From NCBI RefSeq assembly GCF_013839515.1, contig NZ_JACDNQ010000012.1:15310-79309 (forward strand): 64,000 nucleotides of DNA, in the 5' to 3' direction. This document shows positions 4,238-31,098 of this stretch, one piece after another. Numbering within the stretch: the first letter of the stretch is position 1; every line of letters starts with the position of its first letter. Origin of the DNA: Natronomonas salinimetallica (GTDB lineage: Archaea; Halobacteriota; Halobacteria; Halobacteriales; Haloarculaceae). A model generated the notes under the pieces. That model worked only from the letters and a program-made list of their open reading frames with translations. It had not been told where the DNA came from and made no database searches. The position numbers and the translations under genes are program-made.

Positions 4238-4471
4238 TCAACTCTCTTGGACCTTGACGTACCAGAGTTCCGACTCCGGATTGGTCGTCTCGTACGCGAA
4301 TCCGCGCTCTTCGAGGACCTGATACAGCGGCTGTGGTTCGAAGCTGTTTATTAACAACAACGAATCGCCGGCCGGTAGGTCCTCGAGGGCGGACATTATG
4401 TGTCCGAACGGTTCGCCGTCGACTGTTCGGACGTCCAGTTCTCTCGTCGCGTCGGGTCGGTCACTGCTCAT
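4238..4471 (-). CDS. DUF2249 small protein
   Basis: 77 residues. The pattern LDVRTVDGEPFGHIMSALEDLPAGDSLLLINSFEPQPLYQVLEERG matches the DUF2249 (SirA/TusA-like fold) family: acidic N-terminus, helix, a short strand ending in N-x-x-x-P-x-P-L-Y. Biochemical function is unknown; such genes often sit beside anaerobic respiration genes in haloarchaea. It is one of three DUF2249 genes here (others at 5291 and 15840), all sharing the same upstream palindrome. An AT-rich element (AATATATACT on the coding strand) sits about 30 bp before the ATG, immediately downstream of that palindrome. The family call is firm, the role is inferred from context. Confidence 0.85.
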   Translation of the reverse strand: MSSDRPDATRELDVRTVDGEPFGHIMSALEDLPAGDSLLLINSFEPQPLYQVLEERGFAYETTNPESELWYVKVQES

Positions 4472-5290: not shown

Positions 5291-5554
5291 ATGAACGACG
5301 TCGCCGCATATCTCTCGCAGACTGACGCGCCGGCCGACTCCCCCCACGAAACGCTCGATGCGCGGGAACTGCCGCCACCGCAGCCGCTGAAAAACACCCT
5401 CGAAAAGCTGGCCGACATCGACGACCCGGTCGTGCTCGTACAGCTGAACGACCGGCGTCCCCAACACCTGTATCCGCGCCTGGACGAGCGGGGGTACCGA
5501 TACGAGACGATCGACGACGACGACGTCTCGGTCACGGTCATCTGGAGCGAATGA
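5291..5554 (+). CDS. DUF2249 small protein
   Basis: 87 residues. LDARELPPPQPLKNTLEKLADIDDPVVLVQLNDRRPQHLYPRLDERGYRYETID matches DUF2249, with the conserved LDAR near residue 22 and the N-D-R-R-P-x-H-L-Y signature. The stop overlaps the next start as ATGA (5551-5554), so it is translationally coupled to the heme-copper-like membrane protein and probably works with it. It heads a four-gene operon (DUF2249, membrane protein, small membrane protein, radical SAM). The ATG was chosen because it agrees with the conserved distance to the upstream palindrome. Confidence 0.85.
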   Translation: MNDVAAYLSQTDAPADSPHETLDARELPPPQPLKNTLEKLADIDDPVVLVQLNDRRPQHLYPRLDERGYRYETIDDDDVSVTVIWSE

Positions 5555-7324: not shown

Positions 7325-8440
7325 ATGACCGCGAAACGTACCCCACCGGATCCGCGCTCGGTCGATACCGACGAACGCCCCTTCGTCCTCATCTGGGAGG
7401 TGACACAGGCGTGTGAACTCGCCTGCGATCACTGTCGGGCGAACGCGGATCCGAGCCGCCACCCCGACGAGCTAACGACAGCGGAGGGCAAACGGCTGCT
7501 CGAGGCGGCGACCCGCTTCGGTGAGAACCAACTCGTGGTCCTCTCGGGCGGCGATCCGATGAAACGCGACGACCTCGTCGATCTCGTCCGCTACGGCACC
7601 GAACGGGGCCTCCGAATGACACTGACTCCGAGCGGGACGGAGGCGCTCACGTCCGAGAACATCGCCGCGCTCGCCGACGCCGGCCTCAGGCGAATGGCGC
7701 TCAGTGTCGACGCGCCGGAGCATGCTCACGACGAGTTCCGCGGTGAGTCGGGGAGTTTCCGCCGGACCCGTGAGGCCGCCGCGGCGGCCCGTGAGGCCGG
7801 GATCCCTATCCAGATCAACACGACCGTCTGTGAATCGACGGTCGAGACGCTGCCGGCGGTCCGGGATCTCGTTTCCGACCTCGGGGCTGTCCTGTGGTCG
7901 GTGTTCTTTTTGGTCCCCGTCGGCCGCGGACGGCTGCTCGAGGGGCTCTCCCCCGAGCGCGCCGAGTCCGTCCTCGAATGGCTTCACGAGACGTCCGAAT
8001 CGGCACCGTTCGGCGTCAAGACGACCGAGGCACCGAGCTACCGTCGGGTCGCGCTCCAACGACAGGGGTCGGCGACGGACGCGCCCAAATCCGATCGGAT
8101 CGGCCGCCGTGGCGGCATCCTCGCCGGCGACGGCTTCGCGTTCGTCTCACACACCGGCGAACTGTATCCCTCGGGGTTCCTCCCGAAGTCCGCCGGCAAC
8201 GTCACCGACGGGGATCTCGTCTCGATGTACCGCGATTCCGAGCTGTTCGAGGCGCTCCGGGACCGCGAGCGCCTGCGGGGAAAATGCGGTGCCTGCGAGT
8301 ACCGCCACGTCTGTGGCGGCAGCCGATCGCGGGCCTACGCGGCGACCGGCGACCCGCTCGCGAGCGACCCGCTCTGTGCGTACGTTCCGGACGGATACGA
8401 GGGACCGCTACCGTGGGACGACGCCGGGAGCCGAGCGTGA
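7325..8440 (+). CDS. Radical SAM/SPASM protein
   Basis: 371 residues. The radical SAM cluster motif is C30-x3-C34-x2-C37 (TQACELACDHC), followed by VLSGGDP, the usual SAM-binding GGE-like turn. The C-terminal SPASM-type region has CGACEYRHVCGGSRSRAY and a last Cys in SDPLC, able to hold an auxiliary Fe-S cluster. The layout resembles the family that includes NirJ/AhbD (heme side-chain processing) and the TIGR04053-type proteins. Operon neighbours are a heme-copper-like membrane protein and DUF2249, so modification of a heme or a peptide cofactor is a reasonable inference, not shown. The gene converges on the FmdE-like gene across an IS605-like relic. Confidence 0.85.
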   Translation: MTAKRTPPDPRSVDTDERPFVLIWEVTQACELACDHCRANADPSRHPDELTTAEGKRLLEAATRFGENQLVVLSGGDPMKRDDLVDLVRYGTERGLRMTLTPSGTEALTSENIAALADAGLRRMALSVDAPEHAHDEFRGESGSFRRTREAAAAAREAGIPIQINTTVCESTVETLPAVRDLVSDLGAVLWSVFFLVPVGRGRLLEGLSPERAESVLEWLHETSESAPFGVKTTEAPSYRRVALQRQGSATDAPKSDRIGRRGGILAGDGFAFVSHTGELYPSGFLPKSAGNVTDGDLVSMYRDSELFEALRDRERLRGKCGACEYRHVCGGSRSRAYAATGDPLASDPLCAYVPDGYEGPLPWDDAGSRA

Positions 8441-8509
8441 CCCCGGCCTCCGCCGACTGTGCTTTTGGTCGTTATCACTTGCTTCCCCTTGCTCAGGGCT
8501 TCGCCCGTC

Positions 8510-8650
8510 TCCTCATACTGCCGGACGTACGTTCGTCCGTGTCCGCACGTCGCGTCGTGGAAACGGGAAGCCTCGGAGTCATACGGAAGACGGAGTCCTC
8601 CGTGGTGACGAGAGACGAAGTCTCTCGAACCACTTGCCCCCGAGGCGATT
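8510..8650 (+). mobile_element. Relic of IS200/IS605-type right end with TnpB C-terminal tail and omega-RNA-like fold
   Basis: The plus strand here can be read as DVRSSVSARRVVETGS, which closely resembles the C-terminal tail of haloarchaeal TnpB proteins (from memory: a conserved S-A-x-R-V-V-E-x-G-S). It is followed by strongly paired DNA: GCCTCGG (about 8572) pairs with CCGAGGC (about 8640). Inside, GTGGT (8603) pairs with ACCAC and CGAGAGAC-GAA-GTCTCTCG (8609-8627) is a perfect 8-bp stem. This is the position and style of the right end and guide RNA scaffold in such elements. No TnpA or TnpB body remains. Confidence 0.5.
8609..8627. repeat. Perfect hairpin CGAGAGAC-GAA-GTCTCTCG
   Basis: Eight-bp stem with 3-nt loop, flanked by a further GTGGT/ACCAC pairing, between two convergent genes. 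It may serve as a terminator for both even if it came from an IS element. Confidence 0.6.
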
Positions 8651-9291
8651 CACACGTCCCGACGTGACACGGTGAAGAACTCCTCATCGGCGAGTATCGT
8701 CCGGACACGGCCGTGCCAGGCCTCGGCGAACGCGGAGCGCTCCTCGGCCGTCGCGGTCCCCTCGATCAGCTTTTGTAGGTGCTGGGTCGCGGGACCGGCT
8801 CCCGGAACGTCACCGACGTGGTAGGTGACCGTGACGGCCTCGCCCGTGTCCGTTCGCTCGAACGCGACGGCGGGTTCGTCCGCCCCGAAGTCGCCGAACT
8901 CCAGGAGGTCGTTTCGTCCGCCGTAGCCGCCGGCGAGTCCGCCGAAGCCGTCCTCCTCCGCGGCACCCGTGATGTAGGAGATGATCCGTGAGGACACGCC
9001 GTACGTCGGATCGGATTTGTCCCCGCCCATCGTGACCGCGATCTCGCTCCGAACGGGGAGCTCGGTCGGATAGAGCTCCGCGAGCCCCAGTTGGGTCATC
9101 CGGAAGGCACCCGATGCCGTCGGACAGGAGTGGCCGGCCTGTTTGAGTACGTCCGCGTAGTCTATCGCGATCGGCTCGCCCGGATCGAGGACCGTCAGGG
9201 CCTCCGCGACGGGGTCACGGATCCGGATCGGTTCGACCGAGTCGTATTCGACGTTCCAGTTCGTCCGTTCGGGGTCGATAGTATCAGTCAT
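8650..9291 (-). CDS. FmdE-like protein (tentative)
   Basis: 213 residues from the ATG at 9291. The segment DVLKQAGHSCPTASGAFRMTQLGLAELYP recalls the G-H-x-C-P-x-x-x-x-G-x-R core of the FmdE family, whose best-known member is a formylmethanofuran dehydrogenase subunit; haloarchaea use such domains outside methanogenesis. A Gly-rich FGGLAGGYGGRNDLLEFGDFG follows. The frame continues upstream through five copies of an 18-bp repeat (PITDTP per unit), but the ATG in the first, diverged unit is the likely start. Its stop abuts the IS605-like relic. The precise function is unknown. Confidence 0.65.
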   Translation of the reverse strand: MTDTIDPERTNWNVEYDSVEPIRIRDPVAEALTVLDPGEPIAIDYADVLKQAGHSCPTASGAFRMTQLGLAELYPTELPVRSEIAVTMGGDKSDPTYGVSSRIISYITGAAEEDGFGGLAGGYGGRNDLLEFGDFGADEPAVAFERTDTGEAVTVTYHVGDVPGAGPATQHLQKLIEGTATAEERSAFAEAWHGRVRTILADEEFFTVSRRDV

Positions 9292-15839: not shown

Positions 15840-16076
15840 TTATATCCGTTTCGGCAGGTCGGCGACGTACTTTCCTTCCTCGACTTGCTCACAGTCGTAG
15901 CGGTCCGCGTCGAACGCCGATACCTCCGCTTGGAACTCATAGAACAGCGGCTTCGGCTCGTGGTCGTTGACGATTCGGAGCGTCTCGCCGTCCTCCAGCT
16001 CCTCGAAGGCCGCGTGAATCTTCGGGTGGCGTTCCGCCGGCGGCGTCTCTCTGAGATCTAACGTCGTTTCTGGCAT
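15840..16076 (-). CDS. DUF2249 small protein
   Basis: 78 residues from the ATG at 16076. [43 protein letters not shown] matches DUF2249, with LDLR at the start and the N-D-H-x-P-x-P-L motif. A second ATG at 16094 would add six residues; the inner one is preferred because it places the palindrome at 16115-16126 exactly 39-50 bp upstream, as for related genes. It is divergent from the copper ATPase and shares a promoter region holding two palindromes. Third DUF2249 gene of the window. Confidence 0.85.
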
Positions 16077-16114
16077 CGGTACGTCTTCGGTCACGAACCG
16101 GGTGTGGGTTCCGC

Positions 16115-16126
16115 CGAATATGTTCG
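16115..16126 (-). promoter_or_regulatory. Operator-like palindrome CGAATATGTTCG
   Basis: 39-50 bp upstream of the DUF2249 ATG at 16076. One of two sites in the divergent promoter with the copper ATPase gene. Confidence 0.6.
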
Positions 16127-16196
16127 AGCCGGTCTCCGATCACCGCGGACGCCCGGTGGCCTGACCTGCCCGGCCGACCCACCGGCCTCCCGTGAC

Positions 16197-16208
16197 CGAA
16201 CGTGTTCG
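16197..16208 (+). promoter_or_regulatory. Operator-like palindrome CGAACGTGTTCG
   Basis: 40-51 bp upstream of the copper ATPase ATG at 16248, followed by AACTATTCGG at the TATA position. Identical 12-mer to the heme O synthase site at 24674. Confidence 0.65.
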
Positions 16209-16247
16209 ACGACAACTATTCGGTCACGGAGATTAGTCACCAACACG

Positions 16248-18695
16248 ATGGGTGTCTGTTCTCTCTGTGATTTAGAAACCCCGACGCCCCCGATAACCGG
16301 CGACGACGTCGACGGGGACTTCTGTTGTCGTGGGTGTCTGGAAGTGGCTCGGGCGCTCGGGGACGTCGACGACGTCGACGGCGTCGACGACGTGAGGTCG
16401 GACGCCGAGACGTCGGAGCGTGAGATCCCCGACGACGCCTCCGAGGCGTACCTCGCGGTCGACGGCATGCACTGTACCACCTGTGAGGCGTTCCTCGGCC
16501 TGCGCGGCGACGACGTCGAGGGCGTCTATGCGCTGGACGCCAACTACGCGATGGAGACCGCGCGGGTGGTCTACGACCCCGAAACGATCCCGACGGAGGA
16601 ACTCCCCGACGTACTGTCGAGCCACGGCTACTCCGTTCGCTTCCGCGAGGAGGACGACCAGGGGGTCGACCGCGACGCCAGAGCACGCCAGCTGAACACC
16701 GTCCAGCGGCTCGTCGTCGGGGGCTTCTTTACGATGCTCGTAATGCCGTGGTACGTCTTCTATCTCTATCCGAGCTACGTCGGCATCGATACGGGCCTCC
16801 TCGCGGTCGATACGACGACGCCGCTCACGTTGTATCTCCCCTTGGTCTTCATGGGGCTTTTCACGTCAGTCGTCCTGTTTTATACGGGGTATCCGGTCCT
16901 CAGGGGGGCGTGGGTGAGTATCCGGGCACGACAGCCGAACATGGACCTGTTGGTCTCCGTCGCCGCCCTCTCCGCCTACGGATACAGCACCGTCGCGCTC
17001 GCGACCGGAAGTACCCACCTGTACTACGACGTGAGCGTCGCGGTGATCATGGTCGTCACGCTCGGCCGGTACTACGAGGGGCGGGTCCGATCACGCGCGA
17101 GCGACGCGCTTTCGACGGTTACGGCCGCACGGACGAAGGAGGCGACCAAGCTCACGGACGACGGCAGGACGGTCGTCCCCGTCGAGGAACTCTCCCCCGG
17201 CGACCGGCTCGTCGTCGCTCCCGGTGAGCGCGTCCCGGTCGACGGAGCCGTCCTCGAGGGGGTCGCCGACGTCGACGAATCGGTGCTGACAGGGGAGTCG
17301 CTCCCGGTCACGAAAGAGCCGGGCGATACGGTCGTTGGTGGTTCGGTCGTCGAGGACGACGCGCTCGTCGTCGCCGTCGACGACACGGAGAGTACGGCCG
17401 ACCGCATCGCGACCGCGCTGTGGGAGATACAGAGTCACGCGCCCGCCGCCCAGCGGCTTGCGGACGCGATCGCGACGGTATTCGTTCCGCTCGTCCTCGT
17501 CATCGGGACGGCCGTCACGCTCTGGCAGCTGTTGACGGGGGCGTCCGTCGCCGCGGCCATGCTGGCCGGGCTCACCGTCCTCGTCGTGTCGTGTCCGTGT
17601 GCCATGGGGCTTGCGACGCCGCTGGCGGTTTCGGGGGGGCTTCGGGACGCGCTCGCCCGAGGGATCGTCGTCACGAACGAGTCGGTCTTCGAGGTCGCCC
17701 CCGAGGCCGACACCCTCGTCTTCGACAAAACGGGCACGTTGACGGCCGGCGAGATGCGTGTTGTCGACGTCGCCGGCCACGAGGAAACGCTCCGGTCCGC
17801 GGCCGCGATCGAGCGGTTCGCGAGCCACCCCGTCTCCGATGCGATCCTCGAGGCCGCCACAGTGGACGGGTCCGACACCGACCCCGAGGCCATCGCGGAC
17901 GGCGGTGCCGTGGGACGTTCGCCGGATACGGCGGCCGACGAGACCAGGGGTCCGGACCTCCCCGACGCGAGCGAGTTCATCCGCCACCCCGGAGAGGGGG
18001 TCTCGGCGACCATCGACGCCGGTCGCGTCGTCGCCGGGACTCCCGAACTGGTCGAGGAACGGGCCGGTCCGATCCCGGACCGTCTCGCCGCACGTATCGA
18101 TGCGATCGAACAACGGGGAGGACTCCCGATCGTCGTCGGGTGGGACGGGCAGGCACAGGGCGTGATCGCCGTGGCCGACGAGGAGCGCGCCGGCTGGGAG
18201 CCCGCGATCGAGACGTTTTCGGACCGCGAGATCGTGATACTGACCGGAGATGCGGGGGAAAGCGTCCAGCGTTTCCGTGAACACCCCGCCGTCGACACCG
18301 TGTTCACCGGCGTTCCACCCGACGGCAAAGTCGAGACGGTCCGGCGGCTGGCGGCGAACGGAACGACGGTCATGGTCGGCGACGGAACCAACGACGCGCC
18401 GGCGCTCGCGGCCGCCGATCTCGGCATCGCGATGGGGGACGGAACCGCCCGCGCCATCGACGCCGCCGACGTCGTCGTCGACGACAGCGACCTCGCCGCA
18501 GTCGAGAACGTGTTCGGCCTCGCCAGCGGGACCCGCCGACGGATCCGTGAGAACATCCTCTGGGCGTTCTTATACAACGCGATCGCGGTCCCGCTCGCGG
18601 TCCTCGGGCTCATTAACCCCTTGTTCGCCGCCGTCGCGATGACTACGAGTAGCATCATCGTCGTCACCAACTCACGCCGGTCCGTCCTCGATTGA
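16248..18695 (+). CDS. copA: Copper-translocating P1B-type ATPase (FixI/CcoI-like N-terminus)
   Basis: 815 residues. The N-terminus has a Cys-rich C-x2-C ... F-C-C-x2-C motif (residues 4-30), then an HMA domain with C76-x2-C79 (GMHCTTC). About eight helices carry [11 protein letters not shown] (the CPC copper site), DKTGT, TGES and GDGTNDAP. The N-terminal Cys motif plus HMA order is typical of FixI/CcoI-type pumps that load copper into heme-copper enzymes rather than only detoxify. That agrees with the ba3-like enzyme, NirK and Sco genes in this window. Its promoter holds the shared palindrome, so co-regulation with respiration genes is likely. Direction of transport is outward by family analogy. 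Confidence 0.92.
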
Positions 18696-19402: not shown

Positions 19403-19490
19403 GTCCACGTTGAGACGGATCCCATCCACGTCGAGAATCACTCGTCCACGTCGAGAATCACTCGTCCACGTCGAGACAGATCCTATCCGT
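19403..19490. repeat. 20-bp tandem repeat (TCCACGTCGAGAATCACTCG)
   Basis: Two exact and two diverged units, lying between the IS6 relic and the 3' end of the 19554 gene. Confidence 0.85.
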
Positions 19491-19553
19491 ACCGGACCTC
19501 GAGCCGCGCTCACTCACTCCAAAATACAAAAACGCATCAGACGGGGCGTCCTC

Positions 19554-20252
19554 TCACCCGGAGGGTTCCGGAACCGTCCGGATGAACCGCCTGAGTATTT
19601 TGTCGTTTTCGTCCCGGAACTGGACTTGGAACTCCGGACCGGTCCGCGTTTCGGCGACGTCGTCCCTGTCGAACTCGACTTCGAAGGGCGGTTCGTCGGC
19701 GGTCGCGATCACCTCCCCGCCGGACACGACGACGACGTGATCGATACCCTGGGCGTCCTCGACGTGACACGAAATCGCGTCGTTGAACTCACAGACGACG
19801 TCCCCGCCGACGTTGGGCTCCCCCCCGTCGCCCCCGTCGCTCGGGGAGAAACCGAGCATTATCGTCCCCGGCGCGAACGTTCCGACGAGTACGACCAACA
19901 GGAGAAACACCGTGATGTTGAGCCGTCCGGAATTGATCGCCGTCTTCCGGACCAGTGGGTGCTTGGCCGTCCGCCGCAACCGGATCGTCAGCGGGACGAT
20001 AACGAGGTGTGTCAGCGGCCCCCAGAGGATCAATACGAACCCGTAGGCCATCGAGTAGTGCAGGAACGTCCACCCCGGCTTGACCGACAGCAGAACCGAA
20101 CTACCCGTCCAGAGGAAGAACGCCATAAAGAAGAGCGCGCCGCTTTTCATCCACCGCCAGGCGGGCGTGTTCGTATAGTAGATGCTCAACAGATCGCGCC
20201 AGGCCTGTTTGATATACCCTGCTATCGTCTTCGATTGTTTCGTATCTGTCAT
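19554..20252 (-). CDS. Membrane protein of the ba3-like oxidase cluster
   Basis: 232 residues. Three to four hydrophobic segments (about residues 37-58, 62-85 and 112-135) precede a roughly 100-residue acidic extracytoplasmic domain with two Cys (VVCEFNDAISC), probably folded as a beta-sandwich; the segment DAQGIDHVVVVSGGEVIATADEPPFEVEF fits such a fold. It lies 229 bp downstream of the catalytic subunit on the same strand. In Natronomonas-type ba3 clusters extra membrane subunits (cbaD, cbaE) accompany cbaA/cbaB; this could be such an accessory, but no family was recognised with confidence. A role in electron entry or assembly is speculative. Confidence 0.65.
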   Translation of the reverse strand: MTDTKQSKTIAGYIKQAWRDLLSIYYTNTPAWRWMKSGALFFMAFFLWTGSSVLLSVKPGWTFLHYSMAYGFVLILWGPLTHLVIVPLTIRLRRTAKHPLVRKTAINSGRLNITVFLLLVVLVGTFAPGTIMLGFSPSDGGDGGEPNVGGDVVCEFNDAISCHVEDAQGIDHVVVVSGGEVIATADEPPFEVEFDRDDVAETRTGPEFQVQFRDENDKILRRFIRTVPEPSG

Positions 20253-20481
20253 CGTGTGACTCTCTCAGTACCGCTCGATCGTGTTTGTTTCATTGGACGT
20301 GGAATCAAGACTCGTTGTATGGTTTCTCGAAGTGCGTTAGCGTGCGATGTCAAAACGTATCGCCGGTGGTTGTCGGAACGTGTCTGTGTGGACTACCGAG
20401 ACGGACGTCGTAGCTTCGAACGCGTCGGCCGCGGAACGTCCGAACACGTCGAAGACAGCCAGCCGACCGGGGCCGATCAGA

Positions 20482-22218
20482 TCAGGCCCCGATAGACCAA
20501 AGCTGTGTGAGCAAGAACCAATTCAGCGCATAGAGGGACACGAACGTCGCCATGAAGATGAGACTGATCGCGAAGGTCCCCCGGAGATCGACGGCGTGCA
20601 CGGAGGCACCACCGTCGGTCTGGAGCCCTCCGTCGGGGAGCATCCCGCCGCGATCATCTCCTTCGAGGCGGTCACCGAACAGTAGTGACCCGACCGAAAC
20701 GAGAACGAACAGGGTGCCCGCGAGGATCGCCAACACGGCGAAAACGCCGAAGACGTTCATCAACGGCGCTGCGGCCGAGAGGCTGAAATCGGTTCCCGGA
20801 ATGTTCCGGACGACACCCGAACTCCGGCGCGGGACGCCGTAGAGGATGCCGATGTACATCATCATCAACGCGACGATACCCATCGCCCCGGCGTAGAAGT
20901 AGGGGACGATCGTCGCAAGCTTGCTCGAGATGAAGTCCCGTCGGAACATCGTCTTGATGATGAAAAAGACGAGCCCGATGAACGAGAGCGTCGTTCCGAT
21001 CGCGACGGTCCCGTGGAAGTGGCCGACAGTCGCGAAGGTGTTGTGCCAGGTCATGTTGAGCTGCATCTGACCCATCAACACGCCCGTGATGCCGCCGACG
21101 AAGCCGAACAGGATAATGCTGAATATCGTCGCCGAGAAGACCGGATTCTTCCAGGGAGCGGACGTGAGCCAGCCGAACAGCCCGCCGCCGAGTCCGCGCT
21201 GGCGGCGACCGGCCTCGAGTCCCCCTGGGATGGCGAAGGCGTGGATCATGCTCGCGAAGGCCGCCCCGTAGAACGCATAGGAGGTGTTGAAGATCCGCCA
21301 GCCGGCCGAGAGCCCCGGATCGACCATCAGGTGGTGGGCCGCGCCGAGGTTGATGAAGAAGAGATACAGGATGAACGCCGACCGCGAGACCTTCTCGGAG
21401 ATGACGACCGCGCCGCCGACAACGTGCGTGAGGAAATACCACACCGTGATCATTGCGACCAGGTTGATCTGTTGGGTACCGTGGCCGACGATCCAGTATA
21501 GCTGTCGGTAGATGCCCGCGTTCACCGACTCGATGATGCCGAGCCGCCAAACGAGCGCGTACGCGAACGCCGCGATCCCGCCGAGGATCGCCTCGACGGC
21601 GATGATCCCCGTAATGAACGCACCGAAGACGACGAGCGGGAGCGTCTTCTTCGCCGCGCCGCGTTTTTCCTGCCAGATCGCAACGAAGAACGGCAGCGCC
21701 GCGACCGTCGCTCCCAGAAGGAATACGATCGCGCTCGCGTAGAACTCGGCGGACACCTCGAGCGGGACGTATGCCGTCAAAAGCGGCGCTTCTCCGCCAC
21801 CGGCCGACGTCGCGGTCCAGGCCGTGTAGTTGACGCCGAGCGCGCCGACGACCATGGTGACCCAACCGGCCTTTACCACCTTCGTCAGCGGGAGCCGTCG
21901 ACCGAGTACGATCGGCCCACCCACGTAGAGGATGGCGATCTCCATGAACACCATCCAGAAGATGAGGATGTTCCAGGCGTGCATGCTGAGGTGGGTATAG
22001 TAGCCGTCCTCCGGGATGAGCCCGATCAGCTCCCAGCGCGTCATCGCTACGGTAAAAGCGAAGCTCCCACCGATGATGAGCGCAATGACCGCCGTCAAGC
22101 CGAACAGTTTGACGTGGTTCTCCGCCGATCGGTGGATCGAGAGTCCCGTGACGGAACACTCCCGAAAGCCGTCCTCGTCGTAGTCGTTGCCGAACAGCTG
22201 TTTGAGTGCGTTCAACAT
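20482..22218 (-). CDS. ba3-like heme-copper enzyme subunit I with Gln in place of the active-site Tyr (candidate NO reductase)
   Basis: 578 residues, about 13 helices. Ligands visible: low-spin heme His80 (HLSMHAWN), CuB His246 and His295-His296 (GAAHH), heme His400 and His402 (GHFHG). After His246 the sequence is G-T-Q-Q, so the residue four positions on (250) is Gln. In B-type oxygen reductases that place holds the cross-linked Tyr, and in classical NO reductases Glu. Loss of the Tyr marks the NO-reducing families described within this superfamily (eNOR and relatives, from memory). With NirK, Sco and copper genes nearby, NO reduction is proposed. A ba3 oxidase that uses another Tyr remains the alternative. 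The stop of subunit II lies 2 bp upstream. Confidence 0.85.
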   Translation of the reverse strand: MLNALKQLFGNDYDEDGFRECSVTGLSIHRSAENHVKLFGLTAVIALIIGGSFAFTVAMTRWELIGLIPEDGYYTHLSMHAWNILIFWMVFMEIAILYVGGPIVLGRRLPLTKVVKAGWVTMVVGALGVNYTAWTATSAGGGEAPLLTAYVPLEVSAEFYASAIVFLLGATVAALPFFVAIWQEKRGAAKKTLPLVVFGAFITGIIAVEAILGGIAAFAYALVWRLGIIESVNAGIYRQLYWIVGHGTQQINLVAMITVWYFLTHVVGGAVVISEKVSRSAFILYLFFINLGAAHHLMVDPGLSAGWRIFNTSYAFYGAAFASMIHAFAIPGGLEAGRRQRGLGGGLFGWLTSAPWKNPVFSATIFSIILFGFVGGITGVLMGQMQLNMTWHNTFATVGHFHGTVAIGTTLSFIGLVFFIIKTMFRRDFISSKLATIVPYFYAGAMGIVALMMMYIGILYGVPRRSSGVVRNIPGTDFSLSAAAPLMNVFGVFAVLAILAGTLFVLVSVGSLLFGDRLEGDDRGGMLPDGGLQTDGGASVHAVDLRGTFAISLIFMATFVSLYALNWFLLTQLWSIGA

Positions 22219-22219
22219 A

Positions 22220-22765
22220 TTATGGCTCCTCGACGATGAACTCGCCGTGCATACTGTTGTGTCCTCGTCCACAGAACTCGTTGCAGATGACGTGGTACGT
22301 CCCCGGCTCGTCGAACGTCATGGGAACGACCCACTCGGTGTCCGGAAACACTTGCAGATTGATCTGTTTGCTCAGGTTCTCTTCGGGTCGGACCGAAAAT
22401 CCGTGCTGGACGTCGTAGGACCCGAGGTGGATATCGTACTCGTGGCCCGCTTCGAGGACGACCGGAAGGCCGTCCCAGTCGAAACGCCGCCCGGCGATGT
22501 ACACCGAATCCCCCGGCGGGATCAGGTGGCCTTCTTCGGTCTCGTCGGCGGCTTCTTTGTACTCGCTAACCATCGCTTGATACTCGTCGGGATCGACGTC
22601 GAAGGTCTGGCCGATGGGGTTTTGATCGCCAAAGCGCGTGAACCCGCTCATCCAGCCGAAGATAGCCAGAGACCACACCCCGGCGATCCCAAGCCAGATG
22701 CTTTCGCGTCGGTTGACCGGTTCGTCCCACCAGTTGCCCTCGGGTTCGTCAAATGGTCCTGCCAT
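22220..22765 (-). CDS. Heme-copper enzyme subunit II with CuA site
   Basis: 181 residues. One N-terminal helix (about 22-40) anchors a cupredoxin domain outside the membrane. The CuA ligands are complete: His121, then C161-x3-C165-x3-H169-x2-M172 (CNEFCGRGHNSM). It accepts electrons from a soluble donor, probably one of the cupredoxins encoded at 27.0-28.4 kb, and passes them to subunit I. This rules out a quinol-fed enzyme of the qNOR type. It sits between the 48-residue protein (3 bp upstream) and subunit I (1 bp downstream), a tight operon. Confidence 0.93.
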   Translation of the reverse strand: MAGPFDEPEGNWWDEPVNRRESIWLGIAGVWSLAIFGWMSGFTRFGDQNPIGQTFDVDPDEYQAMVSEYKEAADETEEGHLIPPGDSVYIAGRRFDWDGLPVVLEAGHEYDIHLGSYDVQHGFSVRPEENLSKQINLQVFPDTEWVVPMTFDEPGTYHVICNEFCGRGHNSMHGEFIVEEP

Positions 22766-22768
22766 CGT

Positions 22769-22915
22769 TCACCTCGCAGGGACCGATAGGATGTCCATCA
22801 GCCCCCATCCAACATAAATGACGGCGAAGAAGACGATGGCGGCGGCTGCTAGGAGCCAAATTCGGTTGTACAATCGCTGCATTACGGGTATTTCTTCCGA
22901 TGGAGACGTGCTCAT
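22769..22915 (-). CDS. 48-residue single-helix subunit of the ba3-like enzyme
   Basis: Short gene reading MSTSPSEEIPVMQRLYNRIW and then a hydrophobic helix (LLAAAAIVFFAVIYVGWGLMDI) before a short tail ending SVPAR. One helix with a soluble N-terminus is the layout of the small subunits (CbaD or subunit IIa type) that pack against ba3 oxidases. Its stop is 3 bp before the subunit II start, so it leads the operon. An A/T-rich AAAATAAG lies about 28 bp upstream and a palindrome (22966-22977) just beyond. Confidence 0.8.
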   Translation of the reverse strand: MSTSPSEEIPVMQRLYNRIWLLAAAAIVFFAVIYVGWGLMDILSVPAR

Positions 22916-23218: not shown

Positions 23219-24634
23219 TCAGGCGACGGCGGTCTCGAAGATGATCGCGAGCAGGACCGCACCGAGGTAGGCGTTGGACGCGTAGAAACTCCGATATGCG
23301 GCCCGTTCCGTATCCCGGTAGTACTGCTCTGCGACCGCCCAGAGGAATCCGAGGCCGGCGAAGGCGGAGACGAACGCGTACACCGGCGTGAACTCGGCGA
23401 CCATGCCGAGCCCGCCCGCGACCAGGAGCGTCGCGCCGAGCCAATAGAGGATCCGGCGGCGGGCGAGCGCGACCCCCCGTTCGACCGGGAGCATCGGATA
23501 GCCGGCTTCGTCGTAGCCGTCCCGGCAGGCGATGGCGAGGTTATAGAAGTGGGCAGGTGTCCAACAGAAGACGACCGCCGCGAGCAGGAGGGCGGGAAGC
23601 CCGACGGTCCCGGTTATCGCGGTCCAGCCGATCACGGCCGGAAGCGCGCCCGAACCGCCGCCGATAACCGTATTCCAGGTCGTCGACGGCTTGAGCACGA
23701 CGGTGTAGATGACGGCGTAATAAAACGCCGCGAACGCGGTCAGCGCAGCCGTGAGCTGGTTCGTGAACGTCAACAACACTGCCATCGAGGCGACGAACAG
23801 GGCGGCACCGAAGACCGTCGCCCGGAGCGGATCGACAGTCTCGGAGACGAGAGGGCGGTTCGACGTCCGATCCATCCGCTGATCGCGCTCGCGCTCGTAG
23901 ACGTGATTGAACGTTCCCGCCGCCCCGATTGCTAGCGTTCCGCCGGCGAGCGTCGCGACGACGGTCACGCCGTCGAGGACGGCACCGGTGACGCTCGTGA
24001 GCGCCATGCCGGCCAACGCGAGCAGACACAACAGCCACATCAGGCGAGGCTTCGTCAACGTGAGGTAGGCACTCGCTCGCTCCTTGATCGAGACGGTCCC
24101 CGGGGAACGGGCCGACCGGTCGTCCGAGGAACGCGTTTCGTCCGCCGACCGATCGTCGCTGGGGGCCGTGGCAGCCGACCCGGTTTCCCCGGTCGTTCGG
24201 TCCGTCCCCGACGCCGGCACGGCCCCCTCCACCGCCGCCGACCCGACCCCGGACGGCCGGGCCACGCCGACGTCAACCTCCCCGTCGAGGTGCCACACGA
24301 GCGTGAGAAGCAGCGATCCGAAGACGAGCATACCGCCGAGGAGATGCGCTTGCTCCCCCAACACGGCGAGGTCGCGCAGGGTTGCGGCTCCGAGCAGTGC
24401 CTGTCCCGGAAACACGACGAACGCGAGCGACGATCCCAGGCGTACGCGGCGGTCGTGGTCGTCGACCCACGAACGAACGGCGACGACGAGCACGAGGGCC
24501 CAGACGAGGCCCGCCGCACCGTAATGGCCGAGCGCGACCGTCGATAAATCGGTCGCTGCCGTCATCGCCCCGAGCACGACGAGTAAATATGCCGATAGCG
24601 TCGCTACGATCAACGTCGCGGTGAACCTTCGCAT
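23219..24634 (-). CDS. ctaB: Heme O synthase fused to an N-terminal CtaA-like membrane domain
   Basis: 471 residues. From about 184 on it is a UbiA-type prenyltransferase with the Asp-rich motif N-x3-E-x2-R-D (NHVYERERDQRMDRTSNRP) and TPAHFYNLAI, as in protoheme IX farnesyltransferase, which makes heme O for a-type hemes. The first 125 residues form four helices resembling half of CtaA (heme A synthase), joined by a roughly 55-residue Ser/Asp/Thr-rich linker; such a fusion is known in haloarchaea. It supplies heme to the ba3-like enzyme upstream. The promoter carries three operator-like sites in a repeat array. Confidence 0.9.
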   Translation of the reverse strand: MRRFTATLIVATLSAYLLVVLGAMTAATDLSTVALGHYGAAGLVWALVLVVAVRSWVDDHDRRVRLGSSLAFVVFPGQALLGAATLRDLAVLGEQAHLLGGMLVFGSLLLTLVWHLDGEVDVGVARPSGVGSAAVEGAVPASGTDRTTGETGSAATAPSDDRSADETRSSDDRSARSPGTVSIKERASAYLTLTKPRLMWLLCLLALAGMALTSVTGAVLDGVTVVATLAGGTLAIGAAGTFNHVYERERDQRMDRTSNRPLVSETVDPLRATVFGAALFVASMAVLLTFTNQLTAALTAFAAFYYAVIYTVVLKPSTTWNTVIGGGSGALPAVIGWTAITGTVGLPALLLAAVVFCWTPAHFYNLAIACRDGYDEAGYPMLPVERGVALARRRILYWLGATLLVAGGLGMVAEFTPVYAFVSAFAGLGFLWAVAEQYYRDTERAAYRSFYASNAYLGAVLLAIIFETAVA

Positions 24635-25034: not shown

Positions 25035-25697
25035 TCAGGGAACGGGCTCGAAATGGAGGTTCTCCTGCGGCAACCACTCCCGGACGAACTTCTTCGTGAC
25101 GACCTCCTCGGCGCGGTGGAGCGTCTCGCTGCAGGTCGATTTTGCCAGCCCGATCTCCTCGGAGAGTTCGGTGAGCGTACAGCGACGGGGGGTGTCGTAA
25201 TACCCCATCGAGACGGCGAGCCGAAGCAGTTCGCGCTGTCGGTCGGTCAACAGCTGATCGGGCTGGAGCCGCTGTTGGATGTACTCGATCTCGAAATCGA
25301 TACCCATCGCCGAGAACTGCTCGCCCAGCTCCGAGAGACGGTCGTGCCCGGCGGAGACGTCGACGATCGCGGTCCCGTCCTTGATTTCGACCGGCATCTC
25401 GATCGGCGTCCCGGAGCGCTTCGCCGCCAAGAGCAGCATCGGCTTGGACGTCACGATCTGGACCGTCGCCGCTCCGTCCGTCTGTTGGATCACCGAGGCC
25501 TCCTCGATCGTTTCGTGGGTACGTATTCGCTCCAACACCGATTCGACCGAATCGGACCGGAACCGAAACAGACCGAATCCCTTCCCCTCCTCCGGAAGCG
25601 CCGTCAGTACCTCGAAAAGCGCCTCCGGATGGTCTCTGGAAACGTCTGCGATCCATGGGCCGTCCGGCAGTTCGACGCGGAGTCTCGCCTGGGGCAT
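25035..25697 (-). CDS. HTH_10 (bacterio-opsin activator-like) transcription regulator
   Basis: 220 residues from the ATG at 25697; an upstream start at 25718 would add seven residues. LTDRQRELLRLAVSMGYYDT and TELSEEIGLAKSTCSETLHRAEE form the C-terminal HTH_10 domain. The N-terminal 150 residues are Bat-type and carry no Cys cluster like that of NarO. It is divergent from nirK with 196 bp between the starts, making it the first candidate for local control of the nitrite reductase operon. A palindrome at 25742-25753 lies in its promoter. Confidence 0.87.
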   Translation of the reverse strand: MPQARLRVELPDGPWIADVSRDHPEALFEVLTALPEEGKGFGLFRFRSDSVESVLERIRTHETIEEASVIQQTDGAATVQIVTSKPMLLLAAKRSGTPIEMPVEIKDGTAIVDVSAGHDRLSELGEQFSAMGIDFEIEYIQQRLQPDQLLTDRQRELLRLAVSMGYYDTPRRCTLTELSEEIGLAKSTCSETLHRAEEVVTKKFVREWLPQENLHFEPVP

Positions 25698-25741
25698 ACA
25701 GTGTTCCTGTCCTTCCACACACTACTGGATGTCGGTTCGAA

Positions 25742-25893: not shown

Positions 25894-27030
25894 ATGACCC
25901 GGAACAACGAGACCAAGGCCGGTGCCAACCGTCGAACGCTTCTGAAGACAGCAGGGGCAGCCAGCGCTCTCACCCTCGCTGGGTGCGTCAGCAGCGGTGA
26001 GCAGGACGACCCCGCGGCGGAGAATCCGGAGCCGCAGCCCCAAGAGGAGGGACTGGACCCCGCGAAATCACTCGATACCGACCGGATCGCGGCCGACCCG
26101 ACCGAACTGCCGGATCCGGTCGACTGGAACGAACCCCGACACCACGAGATCGAGATGGTCACGACGGAGGAGACCGCCGAGATCGAACCCGGCGTCACCT
26201 TCGATTACATGACCTTCGACGGGCGGATTCCGGGTCCGATGGTCCGCGTCCGTCGCGGGGACACGGTCAACCTCACGCTCACCAACGAGGAGGGCAACGC
26301 GATGCCGCACAACATCGACTTCCACGCGGTCTACGGCCCCGGCGGCGGTGCAGACGACACGACCGTCAGCCCCGGCGAGTCAGCCACGATCGAGTTCAAA
26401 GCGATGTACCCCGGCGTCCACGTATACCACTGTGCGGTCCCGAACATGGACCACCACATCAGTGCCGGGATGTTCGGCGCGATTCTCGTCGAACCCGAGG
26501 GCGGGCTCCCGGAAGTCGACCGCGAGCTGTACTTCGGCCAGCACGAACTGTACACCAACGGCCAGTCGGGCGAGGAGGGCCACCACGCGTTCGACTTCGA
26601 CTCGATGCGAAAGGAGGACCCGACGTACGTCTGTCTCAACGGCGAGGCGTACGCCTTCACCGGCAACGGATACGGCCCGATCACCGTCCAGAAGGGCGAG
26701 CGGGTTCGTATCTTCCACTCGCAGGGCGGACCGAACCTGATGAGCTCGTGGCACGGCATCGGGAACGTCTGGGAGACGTTCTACCGTGACGGCGACGTCG
26801 TCTCGGACCCCGACCGCTACGTCGAGACGGCCCCGGTCGCCCCCGGATCGGTCGCCATCGCGGAGATCGACACCCCGGTCCCCGGCCCGATCAAACTCGT
26901 CGACCACGCCCTCTCGCGGGTCGTCCGCAAGGGCATGCTCGGCGTCGTCCAAGTCGAAGGCGAGGAGGAACCGGAGATCTTCAACCCGAACCCGGGACAG
27001 CCGAGCGGCGGCGCGGAATCTGACGACTGA
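25894..27030 (+). CDS. nirK: Copper-containing nitrite reductase
   Basis: 378 residues with a Tat lipoprotein signal (RRTLLKTAGAASALTLAGC, lipid Cys31). Type 1 copper ligands: His139, Cys180, His188, Met193. Type 2 ligands: His144, His179, His338. Catalytic Asp142 and His287 are also present, so the enzyme should reduce nitrite to NO. It sits outside the cell membrane as a lipid-anchored trimer by family analogy. It heads an operon with two cupredoxins, two Sco proteins, a thioredoxin and CcdA. The promoter has TATA-like GTATATAG about 30 bp before the ATG. Confidence 0.96.
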   Translation: MTRNNETKAGANRRTLLKTAGAASALTLAGCVSSGEQDDPAAENPEPQPQEEGLDPAKSLDTDRIAADPTELPDPVDWNEPRHHEIEMVTTEETAEIEPGVTFDYMTFDGRIPGPMVRVRRGDTVNLTLTNEEGNAMPHNIDFHAVYGPGGGADDTTVSPGESATIEFKAMYPGVHVYHCAVPNMDHHISAGMFGAILVEPEGGLPEVDRELYFGQHELYTNGQSGEEGHHAFDFDSMRKEDPTYVCLNGEAYAFTGNGYGPITVQKGERVRIFHSQGGPNLMSSWHGIGNVWETFYRDGDVVSDPDRYVETAPVAPGSVAIAEIDTPVPGPIKLVDHALSRVVRKGMLGVVQVEGEEEPEIFNPNPGQPSGGAESDD

Positions 27031-27064: not shown

Positions 27065-27691
27065 ATGACACGACATCTCACACGGCGTGGTACGCTCGCG
27101 GCGACCGCAGGCACGGCCGTAGCCGCGCTCTCGGGCTGTCTCGGCGCCGGTAGCGGTTCCGGCAGCGGTGACGGCGACAGCGGCGGGGATCCGCCGGAAA
27201 ACGCGGGGGAACTGGGTACACCAGCCGAGGCGATCACCGTTTCGATCAGCTCCCAGCCGTGGCCGGAGTTCGCCCCACAGATCGTCCACGTCGTGCCCGG
27301 TGCGACCGTCGAGTGGCTCGTCGAGACGGGCCGCCACGACGTGACTGGCTACCACGAGGACAACCATCCGCCCCACCGGACGCCCGACGGCGTCGACGCG
27401 TGGGAGAGTGAGTACCTCACCGGACCGGGATCGACCTACGAGCGGACCTTCGACGTCGAGGGCGTGTACGACTACGTCGACAGACAGACCGTCTGTATCT
27501 CCCACGAGGTCGCGGGCAACGTCGGCCGCGTCGTGGTCGGATGGCCCGACCCGGACACCGAACCGGCGATGCAACCGCTCGAGGACGCGGAGGCGACGGA
27601 GACGCCCTCGCAGGTCCACAACGCCTTCGAGATGTTCGACGAGGAGACGCGGCCCGTCTTGGAAGCGGGACCGGAAGCGGCCGACCGATAA
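27065..27691 (+). CDS. Halocyanin-like cupredoxin with axial Met replaced by Asn
   Basis: 208 residues, Tat lipoprotein (lipobox Cys25) followed by a Ser/Gly-rich linker and a plastocyanin-like domain (about 55-160). Copper ligands: His91 (GRHDVTGYH), Cys144 and His147 (CISHEVAGNVG). At the axial position, eight residues after the Cys, halocyanins have Met; here it is Asn152. The about 45-residue C-terminal extension (VHNAFEMFDEETRPVLEA) is shared with the next gene. Likely electron carrier to or from NirK or the CuA subunit; an altered axial ligand would shift the redox potential. It lies 34 bp downstream of nirK. Confidence 0.85.
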   Translation: MTRHLTRRGTLAATAGTAVAALSGCLGAGSGSGSGDGDSGGDPPENAGELGTPAEAITVSISSQPWPEFAPQIVHVVPGATVEWLVETGRHDVTGYHEDNHPPHRTPDGVDAWESEYLTGPGSTYERTFDVEGVYDYVDRQTVCISHEVAGNVGRVVVGWPDPDTEPAMQPLEDAEATETPSQVHNAFEMFDEETRPVLEAGPEAADR

Positions 27692-27727: not shown

Positions 27728-28405
27728 ATGCACCCGACACAACCTATATACGGTCGGCGGGCAGTACTAGCCGCTGTCGGTACGACAGCCGCTGTATCCA
27801 CCGCCGGGTGTCTCGGTAGCGTCACCGGCGGGGCCGACGCCGAGGAGCCCCAGACCGCAGCACTCGGCGATCCCGCGGACGGGACGACTGTGATGATCCG
27901 CTCCGAGCCGGCCCCGGAGTTCGATCCGCAGATCGTCCACATCGACCCCGGAGCGACCGTCGAGTGGCTCGTCGAGACCGGGCGTCACGACGTGACCGCG
28001 TACCACGAGGACATCCGATCGTTCATGCACCAGCCCCCGGACCGGACGCCCGACGGCGTCGGACCGTGGCGAAGTGATCTCCTCGATGGCCCCGGCGCGA
28101 GCTACGCCCGGACGTTCGACGTCGAGGGCGTGTACGACTACGTCGACAAACAGGAGGTCTGTGTCTCCCACGAGGTCGCGGGCAACGTCGGCCGCGTCGT
28201 GGTCGGATGGCCAGATCCGGACGGCGAACCGGCGATGGACCCCCCGCCGGAGGAGCTTCCCGTCCGGGTCGTTCGCGCACTCGAGATGTTCAACGAGAAG
28301 ACGCGACCTGTCCTCGAGGCCGACACCGGTCCGGAGGGGACAGACACCGAGCGGCGCGAGGCGCATCGGACGGGAGAACACACGACGACCGAGAGAAACA
28401 CATGA
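27728..28405 (+). CDS. Halocyanin-like cupredoxin, paralogue, axial Met replaced by Asn
   Basis: 225 residues, Tat lipoprotein with lipobox Cys28. Copper ligands: His87, Cys145 and His148, again with Asn (153) at the axial place (CVSHEVAGNVG). About 60 percent of the domain is identical by eye to the preceding protein, so the pair arose by duplication. It has an added loop (DIRSFMHQPPDR) after the first His and a charged C-terminus. Its stop overlaps the start of the first Sco gene (ATGA, 28402-28405), implying coupled translation and a shared copper-delivery route. Confidence 0.85.
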   Translation: MHPTQPIYGRRAVLAAVGTTAAVSTAGCLGSVTGGADAEEPQTAALGDPADGTTVMIRSEPAPEFDPQIVHIDPGATVEWLVETGRHDVTAYHEDIRSFMHQPPDRTPDGVGPWRSDLLDGPGASYARTFDVEGVYDYVDKQEVCVSHEVAGNVGRVVVGWPDPDGEPAMDPPPEELPVRVVRALEMFNEKTRPVLEADTGPEGTDTERREAHRTGEHTTTERNT

Positions 28406-29094
28406 CCGCATCCCAACACATCTACGATAGACGAACCGTGCTGAAAGCGGCGGGAACGGCAGCTCTCGGCGCGTCGATGGCTGGCTGTCTCGGTGGATCG
28501 AGCGGTGCCGCCGGCGAGCGGACAGTACTCGACCCGCCGGAGAACTACGAACGACGAAAGGACATCGACCTCCCGTTCCCGGACTACGGCGAGATGCTCC
28601 CGGAGGCGACGGTGCCCGCCCCGCTTCACGATCGCGAGGTGACGACGACGGAGTTCGTCGGCGACCGCCACGCCATGTTGACGTTCGTTTACACGTCGTG
28701 TACGACGGTCTGTGGGACGCTGGTCGAGTCGCTCCGCCGGGTACAGGCCGACTCGATCGCCGAGGGATACGCCGACGAGTTCGCGTTCATGCCGACGACG
28801 TTCGACCCCGAGACGGACACGGAGGCGATCATCGACGAGTACTGCGACCGGATGGGCGTCGACCGCGAGGTGGAGAACTGGTATTTCCTCCGCCCCGAGA
28901 CCCCCGAACGGGCCCGCGAGATCGTCGATGAGACCTTCGGCGTCGCGTACGAAGGCGGCGGCGGACATTACGAACACGCGGCCGTCATCCTGCTCGTCAA
29001 CAAGGACGGGGTCGTCGAACGAGCCTACAACGGCGGCCCGCCGAAGACGGGCGCCGGTGTCGATGACGCCCGGACGCTCGTCGAGGGGTGGTAA
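28402..29094 (+). CDS. Sco1/SenC-type copper chaperone
   Basis: 230 residues, Tat lipoprotein (lipobox Cys29). Thioredoxin-like fold with C100-x3-C104 (TSCTTVC) and His192 (YEHAAVILLVNKDG), the three copper ligands of Sco. Delivers copper to CuA or to NirK/cupredoxins outside the membrane. Overlaps the cupredoxin gene by 4 bp; a close paralogue follows 125 bp downstream. The final D-D-A-R-T-L-V-E-x-W is common to both copies. Confidence 0.92.
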   Translation: MTASQHIYDRRTVLKAAGTAALGASMAGCLGGSSGAAGERTVLDPPENYERRKDIDLPFPDYGEMLPEATVPAPLHDREVTTTEFVGDRHAMLTFVYTSCTTVCGTLVESLRRVQADSIAEGYADEFAFMPTTFDPETDTEAIIDEYCDRMGVDREVENWYFLRPETPERAREIVDETFGVAYEGGGGHYEHAAVILLVNKDGVVERAYNGGPPKTGAGVDDARTLVEGW

Positions 29095-29219: not shown

Positions 29220-29903
29220 ATGACACGGACACCACGAACGTACGACAGGCGGACCGTTCTCCGGGCGACCGGCGCGACGGCGATCGGTGTCTCGGTAGCC
29301 GGTTGTCTCGGCGAGGGCAGCCCCGAGGGAAACGTCCTCTCGACGCCGGAGGACTACGAGCGCCGAAAGGACGTCGACCTGCCGTACCCGACATACGGCG
29401 AGAACGTCCCGGAGGTAACGGTGCCGGCTCCGCTTCACGACCGCGAGGTGACGACGACGGAGTTCGTCGGCGATCGCCACACTATGCTGACGTTCATTTA
29501 TACGACGTGTACGGACGTCTGTCCGTTCCTCGTGACCGCCCTCAGGCGCGTCCAGGACGACTCGGTCAAAGAAGGGTACGCCGACGAGTTCGCGTTCATG
29601 CCGATAACGTTCGATCCGGAGGCGGACACGGAGGAGGTCCTCCGTGAGTACTCCGACCGGATGAGCGTCGACCGCGAGCCGGGGAACTGGTATTTCCTCC
29701 GTCCCGAGACCCCCGAACGGGCCAAGGACGTCGTCCAAGAGACCTTCGGCGTCGCGTTTCAGGGCGGTGCCGGCAGCTACGACCACTACGGGTTGGTCTT
29801 GCTCATCAACAAGGACGGGATCGTCGAACGGGCCTACCGGGGCAACGGACCGGAGGCCGAAACCGTGATCGACGACGCCCGGACGCTCGTCGAGGAGTGG
29901 TGA
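29220..29903 (+). CDS. Sco1/SenC-type copper chaperone, paralogue
   Basis: 227 residues, Tat lipoprotein (lipobox Cys29). C97-x3-C101 (TTCTDVCPF) and His189 (SYDHYGLVLLINKDG) complete the copper site. Very similar to the preceding Sco along its length, including EDYERRKDVDLPYP and FVGDRH. Two copies may serve two targets, for example CuA and NirK or the altered cupredoxins. A redox-cysteine partner (thioredoxin, next gene, 3 bp away) probably keeps its cysteines reduced. Confidence 0.92.
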   Translation: MTRTPRTYDRRTVLRATGATAIGVSVAGCLGEGSPEGNVLSTPEDYERRKDVDLPYPTYGENVPEVTVPAPLHDREVTTTEFVGDRHTMLTFIYTTCTDVCPFLVTALRRVQDDSVKEGYADEFAFMPITFDPEADTEEVLREYSDRMSVDREPGNWYFLRPETPERAKDVVQETFGVAFQGGAGSYDHYGLVLLINKDGIVERAYRGNGPEAETVIDDARTLVEEW

Positions 29904-29906
29904 CCG

Positions 29907-30434
29907 ATGCGCCGCCGTGACCTCCTGGTCGGTGCCGGCAGCCTCGCCGCGCTCGGCGGTGGCGCGGCGGTCGCCTTCGACGTCGTCGGTTCGACCGACG
30001 AATCGACGATCGGGGCCGTCGACCTCGACGTCATCTCGGCCCCCGAAAGTGAGGCCGACACGGTGACGGTACCCGAACCGGGGCGCGTGACCTTCCTCGA
30101 ACTGTTCGCGACGTGGTGTAACGTCTGCGAATCGATGATGCCGGAACTCGCCGCCGCCCACGACTCGACCGACGGGGACGTTCAGTTCCTCTCGGTGACG
30201 AACGAACCCCTCGGCAACACGGTCACCCGGGAAGACGTCGCCGCGTGGTGGCACGAAAACGGCGGAACCTGGACGGTCGCGGCCGATCGGGACCTCGAAG
30301 TGACGCAGGCTCTCGACGCGTCCGGCGTGCCGTACTCGTTCGTCCTCGACGCCCGAAACCGGGTCGTCTGGCGACACCGCGGCCGAACGGACGCCGACGA
30401 GATCGCCGCGGAAATACGGGCCGCCGGAGGCTGA
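29907..30434 (+). CDS. TlpA/ResA-like membrane-anchored thioredoxin
   Basis: 175 residues. A twin-Arg-like start (MRRRDLLVGAGSLAALGGG) gives an N-terminal anchor or signal. The thioredoxin domain has W-C-N-V-C (FATWCNVCE, about residues 67-71) and the cis-Pro GVPYSFVLD. TlpA-type proteins reduce Sco and CuA cysteines outside the membrane, taking electrons from CcdA, which is encoded 4 bp downstream. It lies 3 bp after the second Sco gene, so the three form a copper-site assembly set. Confidence 0.9.
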   Translation: MRRRDLLVGAGSLAALGGGAAVAFDVVGSTDESTIGAVDLDVISAPESEADTVTVPEPGRVTFLELFATWCNVCESMMPELAAAHDSTDGDVQFLSVTNEPLGNTVTREDVAAWWHENGGTWTVAADRDLEVTQALDASGVPYSFVLDARNRVVWRHRGRTDADEIAAEIRAAGG

Positions 30435-30438
30435 TTCG

Positions 30439-31098
30439 ATGGCGGTCGAACTGTATGGAACCACGGTGTTCGCGCTGGGGGCCGGCATCGCGACGTTCTT
30501 TTCGCCCTGCTCGTACGCGCTGTTGCCGGGGTACGTCGGCTACTACGCCGCGAGCATCGAAGACGAGACGCCCCCGATGTCCGGCGTACTCGCCCGTGGC
30601 GGTGCCGCCGCCCTCGGCGTCTTCGCGACCTTCCTCGCGCTTTCGGTGCTCGCCGTTATCGCCAGCGATCTCGTCGAGCGCGTCCTGCCGGCAGTGGAAG
30701 CCCTCGTCGGCGTGTCGCTTGTCGCTCTCGGCGTTGCGGTGCTCGTCGGCTACACCGGGTCGCTCCACGTCCCGCTCCCGCAGCGCCGGGCGAGCGTTCT
30801 CGGGTTCGGGCTGTTCGGGGCGCTGTACGCCCTCGCCGCGATGGCCTGTGTCCTGCCGCTGTTTCTGGCGGTGACGCTCCAGTCTATCACGTTCTCTCCG
30901 TCCGGCACAGCCGTCGTGTTGGGTTCGTACGCGGGCGGATTCGGCGCTTTGATGCTCGTCACGACTGTCGCAACCGCCATCGGTCACGATGCACTCGTCG
31001 GGCGGATGAGCGAACATATAGATTCCCTGACACGGATCGCCGGTATCGTCCTTATCGTGGCCGGGATCGGACAGTTGGTACTCACGTTCGCCCTGTGA
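30439..31098 (+). CDS. ccdA: CcdA/DsbD-family thiol-disulfide transporter
   Basis: 219 residues with six helices. Conserved Cys lie in F-F-S-P-C-S-Y-A-L-L-P (helix 1) and A-M-A-C-V-L-P (helix 4), the two redox cysteines of CcdA, each next to Pro. It carries reducing equivalents from cytoplasmic thioredoxin to the TlpA-like protein upstream and so to the Sco proteins. Last gene of the nirK operon, followed by a long intergenic region. Confidence 0.92.
   Translation: MAVELYGTTVFALGAGIATFFSPCSYALLPGYVGYYAASIEDETPPMSGVLARGGAAALGVFATFLALSVLAVIASDLVERVLPAVEALVGVSLVALGVAVLVGYTGSLHVPLPQRRASVLGFGLFGALYALAAMACVLPLFLAVTLQSITFSPSGTAVVLGSYAGGFGALMLVTTVATAIGHDALVGRMSEHIDSLTRIAGIVLIVAGIGQLVLTFAL

Follow-up and report, generated by a model that had tools for sequence, protein, structure and literature searches.

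A probable eNOR-type nitric oxide reductase near nirK in Natronomonas salinimetallica and a membrane protein that accompanies it

The genes from position 19,554 to 22,915 of the window, a 64,000-nucleotide stretch of the Natronomonas salinimetallica genome, very probably encode a nitric oxide reductase (NOR) of the eNOR type, judging from their sequences. The predicted enzyme is composed of a heme-copper catalytic subunit I, a CuA-bearing subunit II, a one-helix small subunit, and an accessory membrane protein (Table 1). It appears to be an ordinary eNOR because it carries the Gln that marks the class, falls in the eNOR clade, and shares 59% identity with two Rhodothermus sp. proteins, which represent R. 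marinus here in place of a type-strain sequence. The one new finding is a membrane protein, so far without annotation, that always travels with this version of eNOR; the eNOR type itself is already described. The first description, by Hemp and Gennis in 2008, was reportedly from Natronomonas, and the characterized enzyme is said, from Murali et al. (2024), to be that of Rhodothermus marinus. eNOR has been described in Natronomonas and is present throughout Halobacteria (PMC8756737), and it is one of four biochemically characterized NOR families (PMC11388526).

Table 1. Features of the putative eNOR region and its neighbors, by position in the window
Feature	Position	Strand	Basis or remark
DUF2249 protein	15840..16094	minus	PF10006
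Copper-type P1B ATPase with HMA domain	16104..18695	plus	TIGR01511, 421 bits
Membrane protein, 232 aa, no named family	19554..20252	minus	Immediately downstream of subunit I
Putative catalytic subunit I of eNOR, heme-copper type, 578 aa	20482..22218	minus	Start is ATG 22218
Gln250 codon, CAG	21469..21471	minus	Position of the cross-linked Tyr237 of T. thermophilus ba3
Putative subunit II of eNOR, CuA-bearing cupredoxin domain behind a single N-terminal helix	22220..22765	minus	CuA motif, CoxB-like
Candidate small subunit, 48 aa, single helix, subunit IIa-like	22769..22915	minus	Similar ORFs in related loci
Heme O synthase, CtaB/CyoE	23219..24634	minus	TIGR01473, 278 bits
HTH_10 regulator, bacterio-opsin activator-like	25035..25718	minus	PF04967; between eNOR and nirK
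NirK, copper nitrite reductase	25894..27030	plus	TIGR02376, 389 bits (cut-off 296)
Cupredoxin 1, lipoprotein-like, plastocyanin/halocyanin-like	27065..27691	plus	PF00127
Cupredoxin 2, plastocyanin/halocyanin-like	27728..28405	plus	PF00127
Sco protein 1	28207..29094	plus	PF02630; true start probably downstream of 28207
Sco protein 2	29220..29903	plus	PF02630
TlpA/ResA-like thioredoxin	29907..30434	plus	PF08534, ResA/StoA-like
CcdA-like membrane protein	30439..31098	plus	Sequence only; no family match

Subunit I matches PF00115 with 157 bits. An alternative, longer reading begins at a GTG at 22,272 (minus strand); counted from the ATG, His80, His246, His295, His296, His400, and His402 stand at the numbers given in the initial annotation and align with the Thermus thermophilus ba3 ligands H72, H233, H282, H283, H384, and H386. 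Both heme sites and CuB thus have a complete set of His ligands. Four residues after His246 lies Gln250 instead of Tyr. This substitution, already noted in the initial annotation, is real. In an alignment of 115 sequences, Gln occupies the position in 72 of 72 distinct relatives and Tyr in 28 of 28 B-type oxidases, the ba3 of the same genome among them. Because it is kept in all 72 relatives, Gln250 is neither chance nor a sequencing error. Gln here is the mark of eNOR (PMC8756737, Table A4).

The relatives were drawn from GTDB species genomes, genomes related to the window's own, and plasmids. Those that bear Gln come from haloarchaea, Rhodothermota, Bacteroidota, Thermus, Thermomicrobium, and one alphaproteobacterium, and the motif GHxxQQ(I/V)N is found in every one (72/72). 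They have in common Gln249, Asn252, Ile/Val257, and His326, at positions occupied in ba3 by Val, Trp, Tyr, and Thr. Of the K-channel, Tyr261, Ser274, and Ser323 are kept throughout the group and in subunit I itself, in which the residues corresponding to ba3 Tyr244 and Thr312 are replaced. An AF2 model of subunit I, made from an alignment without three plasmid sequences, is closest to ba3 oxidase (3s8f, E 9.6e-16; TM 0.73-0.76).

In a maximum-likelihood tree of 47 sequences, built without curated bNOR, sNOR, gNOR, or nNOR, the sequences with Gln form a single clade (100/100), which is sister to ba3 and stands apart from the A- and C-types. The clade contains a probable N. pharaonis protein and the two Rhodothermus proteins; with these as references, Rhodothermus sp. 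serving for R. marinus, the window protein clusters with accepted eNORs at 100/100. Within the clade, the window protein groups with the Natronomonas aquatica and probable N. pharaonis proteins. The same Rhodothermus genomes encode both ba3 proteins with Tyr and eNOR proteins with Gln. A separate observation concerns the eNORs of a Thermus thermophilus plasmid and of bacterium HR23, which form a supported subclade. Both read HFK for HFH, with Lys replacing the second low-spin heme ligand (His402 in the window), and their CuA motif reads CND(F/Y)C rather than CNEFC.

Subunit II is encoded directly upstream of subunit I, an adjacency common to related loci. The complete CuA site claimed in the initial annotation is intact, with the full motif CNEFCGRGHNSM at the end of the protein. 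Just upstream of subunit II is the 48-aa ORF, which was absent from the initial annotation. The encoded protein has no Pfam match and is similar in size and kind to ba3 subunit IIa. Most related loci have a comparable short ORF ahead of subunit II; such ORFs are recognizable as far as Thermus, Thermomicrobium, and Defluviimonas and follow a pattern like QxLYxxxWLLAxAAxxFFxxxYxxWGxxD.

The 232-aa membrane protein was likewise missing from the initial annotation. No family in Pfam or NCBIfam scores above cut-off against it, and weak Big_7 matches are seen in 16 of 51 relatives. A protein of this type follows subunit I in 51 of 59 loci, from haloarchaea, Rhodothermota, and Bacteroidota, sometimes with heme O synthase intervening; none was seen beside the eNORs of Thermus, Thermomicrobium, and Defluviimonas. 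In an alignment of the 51 sequences, the invariant residues include His82, Cys154, and Cys162. A profile search of 145 genomes of the order found the protein in 28 of 29 genomes with eNOR and in 1 of the 116 others. In the one eNOR genome that lacks it, subunit I runs off the contig end, and the lone occurrence without eNOR is a broken remnant. That remnant lies in a genome of the same genus (G005; locus L153, about 8405-8873) and suggests loss of the eNOR operon there. A plus-strand ORF at 19,410-20,495, which matches 37 loci, was rejected as a gene; it is an antisense reading of the membrane protein.

The AF2 model of the 232-aa protein (pLDDT 89.8) has three transmembrane helices and an eight-stranded Ig/FnIII-like domain, to which the two invariant Cys belong. 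This domain probably lies on the outer face. A profile search of the PDB returned no relative (best E 0.36), and the model gave no confident fold match, the best being Ig-like domains of glycosidases (E 1.2e-3). The chances are about even that, in haloarchaea and Rhodothermota/Bacteroidota, the eNOR complex includes this protein and the 48-aa helix as a dedicated component that has gone unrecognized. The two proteins may help in docking of the cupredoxin donor or in metal-site assembly. The membrane protein offers a simple marker of eNOR and a target for co-purification.

The neighbors named in the initial annotation, from NirK, two cupredoxins, two Sco proteins, and TlpA to a CcdA-like protein, a copper ATPase, and heme O synthase, are all present, the CcdA-like protein by sequence only. 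Besides the DUF2249 protein in Table 1, the window encodes a second at 4,238-4,471 (minus). An association of DUF2249 proteins with denitrification clusters is known from Haloferax mediterranei (PMC11218638). Also near the eNOR cluster is a divergent heme-copper-like singleton, a 456-aa membrane protein at 5,551-6,921 (plus) whose partial match to COX1 is weak, its 24 bits falling short of the cut-off. A radical SAM/SPASM protein at 7,325-8,440 (plus; TIGR04053, 484 bits), with AhbD and NirJ as relatives, has a counterpart of 49% identity beside the Thermus plasmid eNOR.

The genome is 99.96% complete and encodes three PF00115 proteins, an aa3-type oxidase (Tyr), a ba3 oxidase (Tyr), and subunit I of eNOR (Gln). 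It has one NirK and one NosZ (739 bits, above the curated cut-off). The initial annotation had suggested a look for norB elsewhere in the genome; no canonical norB was found there, nor was qNOR (PF22085), for which Haloferax volcanii served as the positive control. Since the genome lacks qNOR and the other two PF00115 proteins bear Tyr, the NO step between NirK and NosZ has no heme-copper candidate other than eNOR. Within the set of 145 genomes from the order, 29 carry eNOR, 76 nirK, and 75 qNOR. nirK occurs in 28 of 29 genomes with eNOR vs 48 of 116 without it (Fisher p 2.5e-8, uncorrected for shared ancestry). The association holds in qNOR-negative genomes, with nirK in 10 of 11 that have eNOR vs 11 of 59 that do not (p 8e-6, likewise uncorrected for shared ancestry). 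In 18 haloarchaeal loci, a nirK of at least 55% identity lies no more than 10 kb from eNOR. eNOR is not always the sole NOR, because 18 of the 29 eNOR genomes also carry qNOR. The initial annotation had read these genes as a Tyr-lacking NO reductase on the B side that works with NirK, and had listed eNOR as one possible class. Residue diagnostics, tree, neighborhood, and genome content support that reading and point to eNOR; NO reduction by the window enzyme would follow by analogy with the characterized relative.

The enzyme could instead serve mainly in NO detoxification, or act on both NO and O2 at low oxygen, rather than in denitrification. This role is possible, if distinctly the less likely one. 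Among the 76 nirK genomes, 37 have only qNOR, 10 only eNOR, 18 both, and 11 neither, and the last two groups may indicate that eNOR has a niche of its own. NarG was not found in the genome, and the Thermus plasmid eNOR operon adjoins an Rrf2 regulator and a DUF542 protein, members of families associated with NO stress. However, the adjacent NirK and cupredoxins, the presence of NosZ, and the conserved K-channel residues argue for respiration, and one role would not preclude the other.

It is very improbable that the enzyme is an oxygen reductase whose proton- and electron-donating Tyr is supplied by another helix, in the manner of the C-family (cbb3) enzymes. All metal ligands of subunit I are intact, and three Tyr residues (Tyr285, Tyr314, and Tyr317) are invariant in eNOR but not in ba3. 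The C-family Tyr, however, sits six residues before the His-His pair in the cbb3 structures. At that helix VII position, no Tyr was found in the alignment of subunit I; Ile289 is there, as in 71 of 72 eNORs, which speaks against the Tyr from another helix that the initial annotation had raised. Moreover, the genome encodes two other oxidases that do have Tyr, and eNOR is strongly associated with nirK. A B-family oxygen reductase with Tyr cross-linked to the CuB His is ruled out by Gln250. Membership in another Tyr-lacking family, bNOR/CuANOR, sNOR, or gNOR, is scarcely credible, for though these are also CuA-bearing B-family relatives, they have Asn (sNOR and bNOR/CuANOR) or Asp (gNOR) at the Tyr position (PMC8756737, Table A4), and the window protein has Gln250 in a supported clade.

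As an eNOR, the enzyme would work as follows. NirK would produce NO outside the membrane, and the cupredoxin encoded beside it would plausibly, as gene order suggests, pass electrons to the CuA of subunit II. From CuA, electrons would move to the low-spin heme (His80/His402) and then to the site formed by the high-spin heme (His400) and CuB (His246, His295, and His296). The most likely reaction at this site is 2 NO + 2 e- + 2 H+ -> N2O + H2O. N-N coupling could dispense with the Tyr that is needed for O-O cleavage, and Gln250 would stand in its place. eNOR has one proton channel (PMC8756737). Protons would probably be taken up from the inside via an altered K-channel, in which His326 replaces ba3 Thr312; retention of Tyr261, Ser274, and Ser323 suggests this route. 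Uptake from the inside would make NO reduction energy-conserving. The N2O would then be reduced by the NosZ of the genome.

A survey of haloarchaeal denitrification has qNOR as the only NOR class in haloarchaea (PMC8400030) and so overlooks eNOR. Of the 21 genomes here with nirK and without qNOR, 10 have eNOR, including the window's own with its NirK, eNOR, and NosZ. To a gene survey that relies on norB or norZ, such genomes would seem unable to turn NO into N2O.

The usual haloarchaeal NO reductase, the qNOR (NorZ) of Haloferax, has a fused cytochrome c-like PF22085 domain and no CuA. The genome has no PF22085, the cytochrome c part of qNOR/cNOR, and the window enzyme has a CuA subunit instead. 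With the ba3 oxygen reductases (T. thermophilus 1ehk; haloarchaeal CbaAB), it shares the fold (TM about 0.74), the metal ligands, CuA, and the K-channel Tyr and Ser residues, but compared with T. thermophilus ba3, Tyr237 is replaced by Gln250, Val236 by Gln249, Trp239 by Asn252, Tyr244 by Ile257, and Thr312 by His326. Ardenticatena maritima has an eNOR-NirK operon (PMC4653789) and likewise pairs the two enzymes, but it is bacterial; in the window, nirK is divergently oriented, with heme O synthase and a regulator in between. The closest known systems are the eNORs of Natronomonas and Rhodothermus, which have in common with the window enzyme the Gln at the Tyr position, the six His, and a CuA subunit II directly upstream. 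The probable N. pharaonis eNOR is 80% identical to the window protein; nirK lies far from eNOR in that genome, whereas in the window it is 3 kb away.
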